The position numbers were made by a program, and so were the translations under genes. The notes under the pieces were generated by a model. The model was not told the DNA's origin. It searched no databases and saw only the letters and a list, made by a program, of their open reading frames with translations. This document shows positions 13,841-54,288 of a DNA stretch of 64,000 nucleotides, piece by piece. Each line of letters starts with the position of its first letter. Position 1 is the first letter of the stretch. Location: contig NZ_AP025516.1 in assembly GCF_023169885.1 (NCBI RefSeq), forward strand, positions 1,736,001 to 1,800,000. The letters run 5' to 3'. The stretch is from Desulfofustis limnaeus. GTDB lineage: Bacteria > Desulfobacterota > Desulfobulbia > Desulfobulbales > Desulfocapsaceae.

Positions 13841-13922
13841 GTTCATGCGGATCGAGCGTACTTTCTTTCAGTTACCGGCAAAGAACCCGGTTGCACAGGC
13901 GCATGCTTGAGATGGATGAACC
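13841..13922 (-). repeat. MITE-like element copy A, 82 bp internal-deletion form
   Basis: Read on the minus strand, this element begins GGTTCATCCATCTCAAGC, continues with CGCCTGTGCAACCGGG as in the left half of the larger copies, and then joins directly to the right-half sequence GTTCTTTGCCGGTAAC. It ends in GATCCGCATGAAC. The termini are inverted repeats of each other (GTTCAT-C/G-C at both ends). It lies between the convergent CNNM and DegS-like genes. Confidence 0.75.
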
Positions 13923-28637: not shown

Positions 28638-28885
28638 GTTCAACCCGGAACGAAGCCGAATACGGGTTAAACCTGGCGAGCAACAGCACGAGGGAGCCTT
28701 TGAGACGCAGGCGTACGCCTGTGCAACCGGGGAAACGAAAGGTGGCGATGGATAACGGTTCGCCAACGCCGGTCTGGCAGCCGTGGCGTGACGGCGATGG
28801 TGACGAAGCGCAGCGTTTGGAAGCGATGCCGTGTGCCGGGTTCTTTGCCGGTAACTCAAGAAAGGATGCTCAATCCGGATGAACC
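28638..28885 (+). repeat. MITE-like element copy B, about 248 bp
   Basis: The right terminus is CCGGATGAACC at 28875-28885, matching copy F exactly. The left terminus is a degenerate GGTTCAACCCGG at 28638-28649. Shared internal blocks are TGCAACCGGGGAA, GGCAGCCGTGGCGTGACGG, CAGCGTTTGGAAGCGATGCC and TTTGCCGGTAACTC. Near the left end an extra stem (about 28638-28676) pairs GGTTCAACCCG with CGGGTTAAACC. The element has no coding capacity. Confidence 0.78.
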
Positions 28886-32905: not shown

Positions 32906-33021
32906 ATTCATTCGTGACTTATAGACGTCGAAACGCTATAGTAAAACAGCGTTTGGATGCGATATCCGGCTCCGGGTCCTTTGCCGGTAATTCAAAAAAA
33001 ATCGATCAACCCGGACGAGCC
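32906..33021 (+). repeat. MITE-like element copy C, about 116 bp degenerate short form
   Basis: The right half is well preserved: AGCGTTTGGATGCGATATCC, then GGGTCCTTTGCCGGTAATTC and the end GATCAACCCGGACGAGCC, a mutated form of GCTCAATCCGGATGAACC. The left end, ATTCATTCGTGACTTATAGA, resembles the left ends of copies D and E. The internal middle part is missing. Confidence 0.6.
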
Positions 33022-36200: not shown

Positions 36201-36229
36201 CCGGCTGCTGGGGTGGTGGAGGCGTTTTT
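36186..36229 (+). terminator. Rho-independent terminator of the M18 gene
   Basis: CGCC-A-CCAC (36186-36194) pairs with GTGG-A-GGCG (to 36224), followed by five T residues. The stem includes the M18 stop codon. The T-run overlaps the end of the convergent calcium-loop gene. Confidence 0.75.
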
Positions 36230-37319
36230 ACACCACCAAATCGATCTGCTGTACCGTCCCGATCTGACCGTCTTCATTGAGGAAAATGGAACTGGAGCGG
36301 ACCTGACCCAGCAACTCGTTGTGGTCGTCTTTCAGAGAAAACGGGGTGCTTACATGGTCGAGATAGAGCGCGCCTACCCCTTTTTCACCTAAGGCGAAGA
36401 GTTTTACCTGACCGTCATCATCACGTGTCCATATCCGAAGTCGGTCATACACGTCGTCGGTCTCATCGATCCAACCGTTGCCGTCCTGATCGTAGGCCTG
36501 CAGATCGGCAAACCCGTTACCGCTTACGGGGCCGAACAGCTCGCCGCCATCGTTGATCACTCCGTCCCCATTACGATCAAGGGCCAGATAACCGCTGCCG
36601 GGGTTCACGAACCGAAGTTGGTCCTTACTGCCGTCACGATCGAGATCGAAGGAGAAGGTGGTATCGCTCAACTGCAGGTCAGTGCCTGCAAAATTGATCA
36701 CCAGGGGGTCCTTGAGTGCATCACCGGCTCGCAGTGAAAGGTATTCTTCGCTGAAAAAGGTTCGCTCCATGCTCAGATGGGCGCTGAAATCGATGGTTCT
36801 CCCATCTCCCGTGACAATTGTTCCGGTCGCACTGAACGTGGTTTTTTCCTGTTCGGCATAGGATTCGTGATATTCGTAGATCATGCCCCAGCCGGCCGAT
36901 TGCTCGGTTGGCTGGGCACCGTGGTCTGCCGATAAAGGCTCTCCCGGCGGGGTGGAAGATGCTTGTTGTTGATAAAAACGGCCCGGATCCTCCAGCACAA
37001 TCTTTTTGCCGGTCAATCGTTCGATCAGGGCTTTGAGGATGCGGATCTTCACATCGGCGATCGGCAGCTCCCCGGCCGGCACCGGTTCGGCTCTTCCCTG
37101 GATCGAGCGAGCCTTGGTTATGCCGCTGGTCGACAACGTCACCTGTTCCAGGTGTCCAGCAAGTGCCGTCGTCGTTCTTTCCTCCAGCCCGGGCAGATCT
37201 TGACGAGGTGCCGGAGGCGATTCTACCGTCTGCCAGAGCGTCAGTTTTTCACTGATCCGGTGTTCTTCCTGATACGCTCGTGCTGATTGCAAGGCGATGG
37301 ATGTGGTGGAAATGATCAC
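36228..37319 (-). CDS. Calcium-loop (EF-hand/VCBS-like) protein
   Basis: The product has 363 residues from GTG 37319, chosen because GGAGGG lies 7 bases upstream; the frame is open further but lacks such a site. The N-terminal half is polar and helical (ARAYQEEHRISEKLTLWQTV). The C-terminal half has three Asp-rich loops of EF-hand spacing: DLDRDGSKDQ, DRNGDGVINDGGELFG and DQDGNGWIDETDDVYDRLRIW. Similar proteins are annotated as VCBS-repeat or EF-hand proteins and may be exported without a classical signal. The role is unknown. It is monocistronic. Confidence 0.75.
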   Translation of the reverse strand: MIISTTSIALQSARAYQEEHRISEKLTLWQTVESPPAPRQDLPGLEERTTTALAGHLEQVTLSTSGITKARSIQGRAEPVPAGELPIADVKIRILKALIERLTGKKIVLEDPGRFYQQQASSTPPGEPLSADHGAQPTEQSAGWGMIYEYHESYAEQEKTTFSATGTIVTGDGRTIDFSAHLSMERTFFSEEYLSLRAGDALKDPLVINFAGTDLQLSDTTFSFDLDRDGSKDQLRFVNPGSGYLALDRNGDGVINDGGELFGPVSGNGFADLQAYDQDGNGWIDETDDVYDRLRIWTRDDDGQVKLFALGEKGVGALYLDHVSTPFSLKDDHNELLGQVRSSSIFLNEDGQIGTVQQIDLVV

Positions 37320-37427
37320 AGCTAAGCCCTCCGTGGCTTTTTGATGATGAAGGCAACCGGGAAGGGTCCCCCGTCCTGGGAGAACAATCCTTATCATCCT
37401 ATCGGCAGGAGAACGAAATTTCTTTAG

Positions 37428-37691
37428 GGCTCATCCGACTCATCCGTACGTCTTTACAACCGAGGAGGCGATGGGTATCGATGGAAAACGGTTCGCGGAG
37501 GCCCGCCGGCACGCCACAGCAGGCCCGCAGGGTTGCGGACAGGACGTCCGCAACTGACAGTAGGCCACGGATGGCCTGTCTGTCAGCCGTGGCGTGACGG
37601 CGACCAGGCCGAAGAGCAGCGTTTGGAAGCGATGCCCATCGCCGGGTTTGCTACCGGTAACTAAAAAAAGTACGCTCAATTCGGATGAATC
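37428..37691 (+). repeat. MITE-like element copy D, about 264 bp (longest copy)
   Basis: The left end GGCTCATCCGACTCATCC and right end CAATTCGGATGAATC are imperfect inverted repeats. Internal blocks match copy F (GGTTCGCGGAGGCCCGCCGG, GGCCACGGATGGCCTGTCTG, GAAGAGCAGCGT) and copy B. A roughly 45-base segment absent from F carries a perfect hairpin, GTTGCGGAC/GTCCGCAAC at 37532-37554. The 7-base stem GCCACGG/CCGTGGC follows. Confidence 0.8.
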
Positions 37692-37728
37692 TTCTTGAGG
37701 GGAAAGAAGTGCAAAAGAGCATCTATAT

Positions 37729-37747
37729 GATAATGATTATCTCTATC
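37729..37747 (+). promoter_or_regulatory. Candidate Fur box upstream of the seleno-cytochrome
   Basis: GATAATGATTATCTCTATC agrees with the classical 19-base Fur box (GATAATGATAATCATTATC) at 16 positions. It lies 144 bases before the cytochrome start. A possible promoter (TTGCGC, 17 bases, TAGAAT at 37817-37822) lies about 50 bases closer to the gene. Regulation by iron is inference. Confidence 0.5.
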
Positions 37748-37890
37748 AATCTGTTTTTTCTTGGACTTTTCTACCTGCTCCATTGGTTTTCCTTTGCGCC
37801 CCCCAGGCGCATATCGTAGAATAAATGTGCAGCTTATTACCGTAAAGGTTGATGTATTTCTGTTAACCATTTTCATCACAAGGAGGCACC

Positions 37891-39234
37891 ATGAAGAGAA
37901 CGTTCATTGTGGGGCTGGCCTGTTTTGCGATCACCGCTCTGGCGGCCTGGGGGGCATATGCCGCCGGTGGTCCAAAACCTGAGCCATTGCCGAAAGCCAA
38001 AACCATTCAAGAACTGGCTGAGCGATACGATTCCAGCCGGTGCATGGATTGTCATGAGGACATTCATGAGGAGTGGTCCAATTCGTTGCATGCCCGTTCG
38101 ATCCTCGGTACCCCCCGCACCGCGCCGACGATTATCACGGCAATCGAAAACGGTTTGAAGATCTTCCCCTACTCAGGGGTAACCAAGGACGAGGATATCA
38201 CCGTTGAGCACCTGATGATGTGTGCCAAGTGTCATCTGCCGCAGTTGGACGAGGCGACCGACGATGTGGCCCGGGAAATCGTCGCCACCATACGCGGTTG
38301 GCAACAAGCCTATAAAGATCAGAATTACGACAAGGTAGATGAACTGCAGGAAAGCCTGGAGAGCCTCAACATCGGCTGTGCGGTGTGCCACAACAAACTT
38401 GCCTTCATTCATAAATGGTCGGATGGCTATGCCCAACCTGACACCATTTACGGTGCCCAGGAAGGAGACCACGAAGACGAGACCTATAGCCAGATGGCAG
38501 AAGCGCCGGCACTCGGCGAATCCATTTTCTGCGGGCAATGCCACGGCCTCGGCCCGAATTTCGAGATGGACCACCCGTCGCAATGCGCCACGCTTTATGG
38601 CAGCTACCTCTACTCCTATGTGGCACACGGCGGCAGCGAATCCTGCCAGGAATGTCACATGGAGAAATCCGGTCTCGGCCACGATATGCAGGCCTATCGC
38701 AGCGAGGAAATGATTGACATGGCCCTGGACGTCTCCGTGGAAGGACGCTCGCTGTTCTGGCGAAAGAACCGGGACGAAGGAGTCGTGCCGATCGGTGTCA
38801 TCAACGTGGAAATCTATAACAAGGCGGGACATGTCATCCCCGACGGCTGACCGACTCCGAACCGGCTGGTCCTGGATGTGACCGCAAAAACCACTGATGA
38901 TAAAGTCGTTTACAACAGTCAAAAAATTTACATGCCGTTCCCCGGCAGATTGGGTCAAGGCAAAGAAATGGGACGTGGTCCCTACGAGAAGAGCGGCCTG
39001 TTGCGAGAAACGAGTATTCCGCCGATGAGCCGCAAACATGAGACCTTTGAAATCACCTACCCCTTCCAAGACGTCGACAAGGACGGGAAGTCCACACGGG
39101 AACTGCTGAAGGACGAATTGACCGTCACGGTGACCGTCTGGTACCTGCCCTTCGGCGAATTTGACGGGAACGAAGTGGCCTTCTTCGAAGAAGAGAAGAA
39201 TCTCGATCTGAAAACCGAATGGGTCTGGAGATAG
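37891..39234 (+). CDS. Pentahaem c-type cytochrome, candidate selenoprotein (Sec320), ExtKL-like
   Basis: One frame runs from ATG 37891 (AAGGAGG 6 bases upstream) to TAG 39232-39234, interrupted by TGA at 38848-38850. Read through, it gives 447 residues. A signal peptide (1-25) is followed by five CxxCH haem sites at Cys51, 111, 163, 214 and 252. Then come NKAGHVIPDG-Sec-PTPNRLVLDVTA and a beta-rich C-terminus. The AGHxxPxG-x-P motif is normal for this cytochrome group, with Sec at a position where Cys is expected in relatives. It resembles the multihaem (seleno)protein ExtKL of selenite/tellurite-reduction loci (inference from memory of the family). It is probably periplasmic. Confidence 0.82.
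38851..38889 (+). promoter_or_regulatory. Candidate bacterial SECIS element (cytochrome gene)
   Basis: CCGG (38862-38865) pairs with CTGG (38872-38875), including one G-U pair, around the loop CTGGTC. The loop GG lies 18 bases after the TGA. The stem is short, so this element is less convincing than the one at 30699. Confidence 0.45.
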
Positions 39235-39274
39235 CACGCCGCCCCCGTTCAAGAAGAAACAACCGTACCACGTG

Positions 39275-39316
39275 TCGGGAAGGGTGGCCGCTTCGGCCCC
39301 CTTCCCGATTTTTTTT
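39275..39316 (+). terminator. Rho-independent terminator of the cytochrome gene
   Basis: TCGGGAAGGG (39275-39284) pairs with CCCTTCCCGA (39299-39308), followed by eight T residues. It marks the true end of the gene beyond the internal TGA, and separates it from the rhodanese gene. Confidence 0.92.
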
Positions 39317-39347
39317 GTGCTGCCGTCAGCACCCCGCAGTATCTTAC

Positions 39348-39425
39348 GAATCATCTGACTCAAACGCACGTATCTGCAACCGGGGAGACGAAGGGTAACG
39401 CTGGGATACGGTTCACGGATTTCCG
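39348..39425 (+). repeat. MITE-like element copy E, left-half fragment
   Basis: The sequence AATCATCTGACTCAAACGCACG, then CTGCAACCGGGGAGACGAAG and GATACGGTTCACGGATTTCC, matches the left halves of copies D and F. No right terminus is seen before the rhodanese promoter region. The following 39426-39600 holds no gene and becomes very AT-rich. Confidence 0.6.
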
Positions 39426-39682: not shown

Positions 39683-41017
39683 ATGAAAATGAACTGGTTA
39701 CAAAAACTCGCTCCGCTGGCGGTTTTGACGCTGGTGTTGGTGCTCAACGGTTGTGCTAAGGACACAGCGGGAGTTGCAGAGAAAGCACAACCGACAGTTA
39801 AAGCCGAGACTCAGGCAGCGACTACGGTCTATACCGGTTCCATTGTCGGTATGTCCAACAAGGCGCAGACTGTCTCCATTGAGGTGGGCAAAGGCGCTGA
39901 TGCGCAGACCCATATGCTCAAGTTCGACGACCAGACCACCGGAATCGAACATGCCAAGTCCGGAGAAGCCGCCATCATCACCTGGGAGCAGCGCGGTGAT
40001 GACAAATTCGCCCTCGACATAAAACCGAAACTGGCCAAGCTCCCGGAAGGCATCACCGAGATCAAGGCCGACGAGTTGTACCAGCTGATCAGCGAGAACA
40101 AGCCGCTGACTTTGGTCGATGCCCGCCCCGAGACCCGGTACAACCAGGCCCATTTGCCCGGGGCCATCAACATCCCGGTACCGATGTTGAAAGAAAAGAA
40201 GGCAACAGTCCTGCCTGTTGACAAGAATGAACTGCTCGTCTTCTACTGCGGCGGCTACACCTGAGGCATGACCACCGAAAACGCCAGTTTGGCGAAAGAA
40301 CTTGGTTATACGAACATCCGTGGTTTCCTTGGTGGTGAACCGGCGTGGCTTGAGGCTGGGCATCCGGTGTATGCATCCTACGACTTTGTCGAAAAGGGCA
40401 ATATCGTCCTTATCGATCTGCGCGGCGGCGGCAAACCGGTTCAGGGCAGAATCTCGCGAGCCATTCCGCTCACCCTAGAGGAGTTGGAAAACCGGATCAA
40501 CGATATCCCGCGCAACGCTCCGGTCGTCCTCTACAGCGACAACGAGGATGAGACCATAGAGGCCTTCGAAGAGCTTCGCTGGCAAGGCTTTAAAAACGTC
40601 TCGCTGGTAAAGGGGAATTATCAGGGGTGGGTCGCGGCCGGCCGGCCGACCGTCGATGGACCGATCTTCTCCACCGAGATCAAATGGGTACGGCAGCTTG
40701 GTAAAGGCGAGGTCTCCGTTGCCGAATTCCGGAAGGCAACCCTTGGTCAACTGCCCGACACCTTCGTCATTGACGCCCGTACCGATGAGGAGATCGCTCA
40801 ACTCGGCATCTTCGCCAATACCGTCAATATCCCTCTGGACGAGATCCCCAAACGCATGAACGAGATCCCCAAAGATAAGCGGATCTTTATTCATTGCTCC
40901 ACGGGCGCCCGGGCCGACCTTGCCTATCGTGAGCTGGTGAAGCATGGCTACGACGTCAAGTTCCTGCTGTTGGACATCTCCGATCCCGAATGTGATTGTC
41001 CGATCATCAGACCGTAA
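39683..41017 (+). CDS. Triple-rhodanese lipoprotein, candidate selenoprotein (Sec194), ExtH-like
   Basis: One frame runs from ATG 39683 (AAGGAGG upstream) to TAA at 41015-41017, interrupted by TGA at 40262-40264. Read through, it gives 444 residues. A lipobox (VLNGC, Cys24) precedes a small beta domain. Rhodanese domain 1 (about 125-235) has the active loop FYC-GGYT-Sec-GMT (Cys189, Sec194). Rhodanese 2 (about 241-323) lacks its Cys (LYSDNEDE), and rhodanese 3 (about 360-435) has HCSTGAR with Cys405. The layout resembles the rhodanese-like protein ExtH of selenite/tellurite-reduction operons (inference). A terminator follows. It is outer- or inner-membrane-bound on the periplasmic side. Confidence 0.83.
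40265..40306 (+). promoter_or_regulatory. Candidate bacterial SECIS element (rhodanese gene)
   Basis: CGCC (40282-40285) pairs with GGCG (40291-40294) around the loop AGTTT, whose G lies 23 bases after the TGA. An outer ACCA (40271-40274) can pair with TGGT (40303-40306). Position and loop G fit a bacterial SECIS. Confidence 0.55.
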
Positions 41018-53988: not shown

Positions 53989-54199
53989 GGTTCATCCGGC
54001 ACAAGCTTGCGTCTCTGCAACCGGGGAAGCGAAGGGTATCGCTTCCAAGCGGTTCGCGGAGGCCCGCCGGCGCGACACAGCAGGCCACGGATGGCCTGTC
54101 TGTCAGCCGTGACGTGACGGCTATGGGGCCGAAGAGCAGCGTGTGGAAGCGATGCCGTTTGCCGGTAGTCCAAAAACACATGCTCAATCCGGATGAACC
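53989..54199 (+). repeat. MITE-like element copy F, 211 bp, with perfect 11-bp ends
   Basis: The element starts GGTTCATCCGG (53989-53999) and ends CCGGATGAACC (54189-54199), perfect inverted repeats. Internal features shared with other copies are CTGCAACCGGGGAAGCGAAG, CGGTTCGCGGAGGCCCGCCG, GGCCACGGATGGCCTGTCTG, CCGAAGAGCAGCGT and GGAAGCGATGCCG. No obvious target-site duplication is seen. It sits about 90 bases before the lepA start and could carry or disturb regulatory signals. Confidence 0.85.
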
Positions 54200-54288
54200 T
54201 GAAAGGTTTTTGCACAAAGATGATCTGGGGCCAAACGGCGCTTGTTTCATGGTCCCTCACACACCCGGAGCAGGTTAAGGAACGATAT

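Follow-up and report, generated by a model that had tools for sequence, protein, structure and literature searches.

The question raised by this locus is whether a TGA triplet inside the frame of a multihaem cytochrome ends the gene or encodes selenocysteine (Sec), and what a cytochrome with such a residue might do. The window analysed, a stretch of 64,000 nucleotides (64 kb) of the Desulfofustis limnaeus genome, contains the gene extKL on the plus strand at 37891-39234. The frame starts with an ATG at 37891, is closed by a TAG ending at 39234 and, with TGA read as Sec, encodes a pentahaem c-type cytochrome selenoprotein of 447 residues. It shows the five CxxCH haem motifs reported in the initial annotation, all of them before the Sec site: CMDCH at residues 51-55 (38041-38055), CAKCH at residues 111-115 (38221-38235), CAVCH at residues 163-167 (38377-38391), CGQCH at residues 214-218 (38530-38544) and CQECH at residues 252-256 (38644-38658). 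The Cys and His of the first motif are invariant (38/38), and the other four are placed by the frame motif and the 38-protein alignment. The TGA (38848-38850, residue 320) lies within a conserved motif, as described initially, which reads AGHVIPDG-U-PTPNR. A long open frame follows, although it contains 127 sense codons and not the 128 first given, a number that counts the stop. At this base composition, 127 codons in a row would be free of stops with a probability of about 0.003, and the results from homology, selection and Cys homologues are far stronger than that figure. Downstream of the second stop there is an intrinsic-terminator-like hairpin with a U run at 39274-39317 on the plus strand (-34.2 kcal/mol, z -5.44, none of 200 shuffles as stable), which agrees with the earlier view that a strong terminator is found only there. 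A simple terminator consensus scan does not list this hairpin and shows no plus-strand terminator-like site at the TGA. The N-terminus shows a hydrophobic helix at residues 2-24 in the structure model and a signal-like start by eye, and these features suggest that the protein is probably exported.

The read-through product is a full-length match to NF040886 (586.9 bits against a cut-off of 250, E 1.8e-176, model positions 7-423 of 423), the curated NCBIfam equivalog "multiheme c-type cytochrome (seleno)protein ExtKL", and the family named from the letters alone is thereby supported. The word "(seleno)protein" in that name implies that forms without Sec are known to the curators. All 38 aligned homologues match the model at 1e-10. 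The genome of D. limnaeus shows one close extKL copy. Of the named relatives found, Desulfofustis glycolicus DSM 9705 is the nearest, being 89% identical and having the genes around extKL largely in the same order. Among PDB sequences, the matches are entries of MccSep, "Multiheme cytochrome c selenoprotein": 9wt8, 9wta and 9wtb (E 6.5e-148), and 9wt9 and 9wtc (E 3.6e-148), with a U325A mutant named among others. The alignment spans residues 33-433 and sets residue 320 against the deposited X325, which is Ala in the U325A mutant; this comparison rests on the molecule names and sequences of the entries, and a literature search for MccSep found no paper on the protein. The protein is almost certainly a Sec-containing ExtKL.

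The TGA is present at the exact PDG-U position in 56 of the 57 relatives' loci, which were picked by similarity, a few of them being the same genome from two collections; there are 53 distinct 48-base stretches among the 57 sequences, the window included. A check for homologues ending at the TGA, suggested with the initial annotation, found none among the loci compared. In the order sample, 71 of 193 genomes (source genome included) show an NF040886 match over the cut-off, and the 78 matches comprise 72 with one TGA, one with a TGA and a TAG, and five with no stop. The phylum sample, which overlaps with the former, shows such matches in 31 of 297 genomes: 33 of the 39 have one TGA, five have none and one has a TAA, to which one further piece of an already counted frame is added; in both samples the stops are counted over the frame, the TGA column having been checked only in the 57 loci. 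All five stop-free matches of the order sample (L103 and L144-L147), which belong to one genus, carry Cys at the Sec column. Cys is also found in one of two tandem copies of genome G027 (L105) and in the copy L148 of genome G289, which has a TAA elsewhere in its frame. Cys forms at the column of residue 320 are thus found in seven homologues from three genera, and together with the aligned X325 of MccSep they uphold Sec at residue 320 as originally proposed. Two copies show neither Sec nor Cys, with Ile in L105 and Val in L026. These copies (L105:3062-4381 and L026:1555-2694) are ExtKL paralogues that retain all five haem motifs and have a changed loop, PDS-I/V; in a second frame of L026 the contig runs out before the Sec site is reached. 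Genome G027 contains a Sec form, a Cys form in tandem with the Ile form (L105), that is, the form with neither residue, and the Sec form is located elsewhere. The Sec, Cys and neither-type copies of this genome make up a natural mutant series.

The sequence downstream of the TGA is under purifying selection, a check that had also been suggested initially. In comparisons with 11 relatives, pN ranges from 0.072 to 0.205 and pS from 0.581 to 0.830; against D. glycolicus the values are 0.072 and 0.581, and the differences fall on codon positions 1, 2 and 3 in numbers of 12, 6 and 52. The downstream dN/dS ranges from 0.056 to 0.135 in the nine of 11 relatives for which it is computable, synonymous sites being saturated in the other two and in most upstream comparisons. 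A sequencing error or a pseudogene, in favour of which nothing was found, has a negligible probability in the face of this strong selection and of the same TGA in 56 of 57 loci.

Directly 3' of the TGA, the relatives share a SECIS-like hairpin, UGGUCC-UGGAU-G(U)GACCG (38867-38884, plus strand), with 22 nt between the TGA and its loop, which was located by synonymous constraint and covariation. The constraint scan (57 sequences, 1516 pairs below 75% identity) peaks at codons 324-331, where synonymous identity is 0.73, the highest of 439 eight-codon windows (mean 0.42, z 4.8); the windows ranked second to sixth overlap these codons. In 45 aligned stretches (44 distinct), a set from which presumed duplicate loci and eight stretches with a different hairpin (chiefly of Desulfuromonas type) were removed, 95.8% of the cells of the 6-pair stem are paired. 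Two stem pairs show compensatory changes, C-G to G-C in three stretches and G-C to A-U in one, and there are five unpaired cells at each of two stem pairs. The observed pairing, covariation score and number of changed cells are each reached by none of 500 shuffles, the two remaining stem measures are each reached by seven of 500, and slid versions of the stem are at most 65.9% paired. Single-sequence folding of this region of the window gives a stability like that of shuffles (z 0.38), and Rfam at the gathering threshold shows no family in the window. A single hairpin for all relatives was discarded, since RNAalifold returned no hairpin for the full set of 53 distinct sequences; on subsets of 35 and eight sequences it gave one hairpin each, with 10 sequences in neither subset, and two group-specific hairpins are needed to cover the relatives. 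The other hairpin, CCGAC-UGGUUCU-GUCGG, is found in L010, L015, L047-L049 and L059-L061 (mostly Desulfuromonas type) at a similar distance from the Sec codon. Comparison of the relatives thus places a putative SECIS hairpin directly 3' of the UGA.

The source genome contains genes for Sec decoding: a tRNA-Sec gene, selC (72.5 bits, over the cut-off), a SelB gene (364.7 bits) and two SelD genes (L077 and L078), both of which contain an in-frame TGA. No SelA was found in the source genome, where the expected stretch reads N in the sequence searched. Of the 28 genomes searched, the source genome included, 23 show a SelA match, among them the same-genus genome G297. The absence of SelA is uninformative because the flank of the G297 selA gene maps beside the N-reading stretch, and a loss of selA was dropped as an explanation, its expected place being unreadable. 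A weak match to PF03841 ("SelA") in the source genome was rejected as a substitute, since by eye the frame that carries it resembles a PLP enzyme of the cystathionine-lyase kind, and a search for SepSecS gave no match. UGA320 would be decoded as Sec via the downstream hairpin together with tRNA-Sec, SelB and SelD. By computation, a read-through family, Sec/Cys exchange, purifying selection, a covarying hairpin and the decoding genes other than selA are established.

These results bear on the older reading of the locus, in which the TGA is a real stop and extK and extL are two genes of a conserved operon. GSU2937+GSU2936 was put forward as a selenoprotein by Fujita et al. (2007, PMC1914089), who found neither a SECIS element nor a homologue without Sec and left an operon possible. 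Seven homologues that read through the site with Cys, the synonymous constraint and the hairpin directly 3' of the TGA, and a deposited MccSep sequence that continues through the site make two separate genes highly improbable. Comparison thereby answers both doubts of 2007, the lack of a Cys homologue and of a SECIS.

The structure model of the Sec-containing ExtKL (mean pLDDT 79.8, pTM 0.74), with Sec modelled as Cys and without haems, shows a haem domain made of helices and, at the C-terminal end, a beta-sandwich; Sec lies in a loop between the strands 298-310 and 325-333. The best solved relative among the matches listed is the pentahaem cytochrome c552 of Thermochromatium tepidum (5ze8; Z 21.6, rmsd 3.2, 307 residues aligned, Foldseek E 4.3e-12, TMq 0.52). 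The 50 matches listed by either structure search, in a library ending on 8 April 2026, include no MccSep entry. The His residues of the five CxxCH motifs and His67, His264 and His314 are invariant in the 38 aligned proteins, His194 is present in 37 and His174 in 36. The five extra His (67, 174, 194, 264 and 314) would be enough to fill the distal haem positions and leave Sec free. The related cable-bacteria sPHC family, likened to c552 5ze8, is placed among cytochromes with one or more five-coordinate haems in PMC11976967, which speaks against all five distal positions being filled by His.

Downstream of extKL, a gene on the plus strand at 39683-41017 encodes a triple-rhodanese protein (PF00581, 133.1 bits) with a lipobox-like start by eye and a TGA at 40262-40264, residue 194. 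This TGA is located in an active-site-like loop with the motif C-G-G-Y-T-U, i.e. C-x4-U, and the protein stays below the cut-off of all 19 NCBIfam models listed. The rhodanese adjoins extKL in six of 28 named loci, with a TGA in all six. In the close relatives L042, L044 and L065 it was not found in the sequence around extKL, and L045 ends at extKL. At E 1e-30, relatives of the rhodanese are present in 26 of 297 genomes, with 28 matches, 19 of them with one TGA and nine with none; among 12 rhodaneses compared, that of the source genome included, eight show TGA at the column and four show Cys. The rhodanese is therefore likely, judged from these alignments, to be a second selenoprotein beside extKL. 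ExtKL over the cut-off is found in 14 of the 26 rhodanese genomes against 31 of 297 overall (Fisher p 3.6e-9, kinship ignored). In those 14 genomes the two genes adjoin only in the source genome and in G289, are about 7 kb apart in G196, are widely separated on a single contig in G128 and G282, and are on different contigs in nine. These scattered positions count against a tight extKL-rhodanese pair. In G289, which belongs to another family, the rhodanese follows the Cys-type extKL.

Upstream of extKL, a 389-residue protein encoded on the minus strand at 36228-37397 shows no Pfam match at 0.001. For the short frame at 37709-37819, a search through the upstream DNA in nine relatives turned up nothing better than E 1.8. 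A repeat family, 72-82% alike, flanks extKL on both sides (37421-37700 and 39351-39419) and is also found at 28704-28883 and 53989-54200, with shorter matches at 13842-13890 and 32947-33018.

Downstream of extKL, Desulfuromusa kysingii (L050) and L047 have a 12-haem frame, a 9-haem frame and two further frames which, by place, should encode a Rieske protein and a cytochrome b. A porin was identified in L050, and the protein in the ExtH place has a rhodanese domain in L047 and not in L050. Six genes of the L050 cluster (ExtH place, porin, 12-haem, 9-haem, "Rieske" and "cytochrome b") have no match at 1e-3 in the window, in which only one frame shows two or more CxxCH motifs. By this search of six genes, an ExtHIJKL conduit, with the ExtI porin and partner cytochromes in the cluster, was not found within the 64-kb window. 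With no counterpart there to these partner genes, the function known from Geobacter may not carry over.

The best overall explanation, held with high confidence, is a Sec-containing, probably exported pentahaem ExtKL with a putative role in chalcogen redox chemistry; the chalcogen-reductase role taken by itself is tentative, a little short of an even chance. The initial suggestion that a redox site for metals or chalcogens may lie close to the haems is plausible. The protein would be an orthologue of Geobacter ExtKL/MccSep, probably an exported pentahaem c-type cytochrome, whose five His-ligated haems may form a short periplasmic electron wire. Sec320, in a beta-sandwich loop between two strands and six residues after the invariant His314, would therefore probably be close to a haem. 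As a selenolate, it could reduce a chalcogen compound with haem electrons, candidate substrates being selenite/tellurite or sulfur of the polysulfide/thiosulfate type, and the neighbouring rhodanese may pass sulfur or selenium to or from ExtKL. That extKL is paired with a probable Sec-rhodanese and has no Geobacter porin next to it is a hint that its substrate is sulfur or selenium rather than an extracellular metal. A broader proposal, speculative and on balance improbable, is that in the Desulfobulbales extKL and the Sec-rhodanese form a periplasmic module of two selenoproteins that can be separated from the porin-cytochrome conduit and acts to reduce polysulfide, other sulfane sulfur or selenium; in it the rhodanese lipoprotein would carry the chalcogen, the Sec of the cytochrome would take it over and the haems would supply the electrons.

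Two other roles were weighed against chalcogen reduction. Peroxide reduction is a common role of selenoproteins, and Sec320 might reduce peroxides with haem electrons in an enzyme of oxidative stress; the neighbours are a rhodanese and an aminopeptidase and not peroxide defence, a weak argument drawn from four scanned window proteins, and such an enzyme is quite unlikely. An electron conduit component for metals (Fe/Mn), in which Sec would ligate a haem or have a structural role instead of catalysing chalcogen chemistry, is unlikely too, though it deserves more weight. According to Jimenez Otero et al. (2018, PMC6148476), who describe for extHIJKL a partial role in metal oxide reduction, a G. 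sulfurreducens strain with extHIJKL alone reduces Fe(III) oxide to as much as 50% and Mn(IV) oxide to as much as 75% of the wild-type amount. The five haems and the fold related to c552 are also consistent with a conduit. Against it stand the window, with no porin or second CxxCH-rich frame, and His67, His174, His194, His264 and His314, which could fill the distal positions and leave Sec free. Exchange between Sec and Cys, moreover, is usual for catalytic redox residues.

Few cytochromes contain selenocysteine, and ExtKL is one of them. Both the family and its Sec are already known: the D. limnaeus gene is a sound further example and not a discovery. The selenoprotein lists of two reviews include a "cytochrome c family protein" (2022, PMC9312934) and ExtKL with NF040886 (2026, PMC13188914), and a literature search on Desulfofustis and selenocysteine found no paper. 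The points developed in this analysis are the Cys forms, the hairpin, the neighbouring Sec-rhodanese and the lack of conduit genes next to extKL, with no claim of novelty beyond the literature search. Compared with ExtKL, the c552 of T. tepidum has the same fold and shares the HxxPxG loop, which reads HxxPTG and is followed by Ala at the Sec column in the profile alignment. The rhodanese-like selenoproteins of forms 1-5, as set out in the 2026 review (PMC13188914), have rhodanese domains in common with the neighbour of extKL, whose motif C-x4-U differs. ExtKL was named by Jahan et al. (2018, PMC5877670), who report that loss of extI, which belongs to the same cluster as extKL, impairs selenite/tellurite reduction in G. 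sulfurreducens and call the role of extKL in that reduction preliminary. The G. sulfurreducens protein (GSU2937+GSU2936) likewise shows five CxxCH motifs and an in-frame TGA as described in PMC1914089, the likeness being drawn from the NF040886 score and the published description. At the level of the locus, the cluster genes of a full ext locus, taken from Desulfuromusa kysingii, have no match in the 64-kb window, and in D. limnaeus a different, probably Sec-bearing rhodanese is located downstream of extKL.
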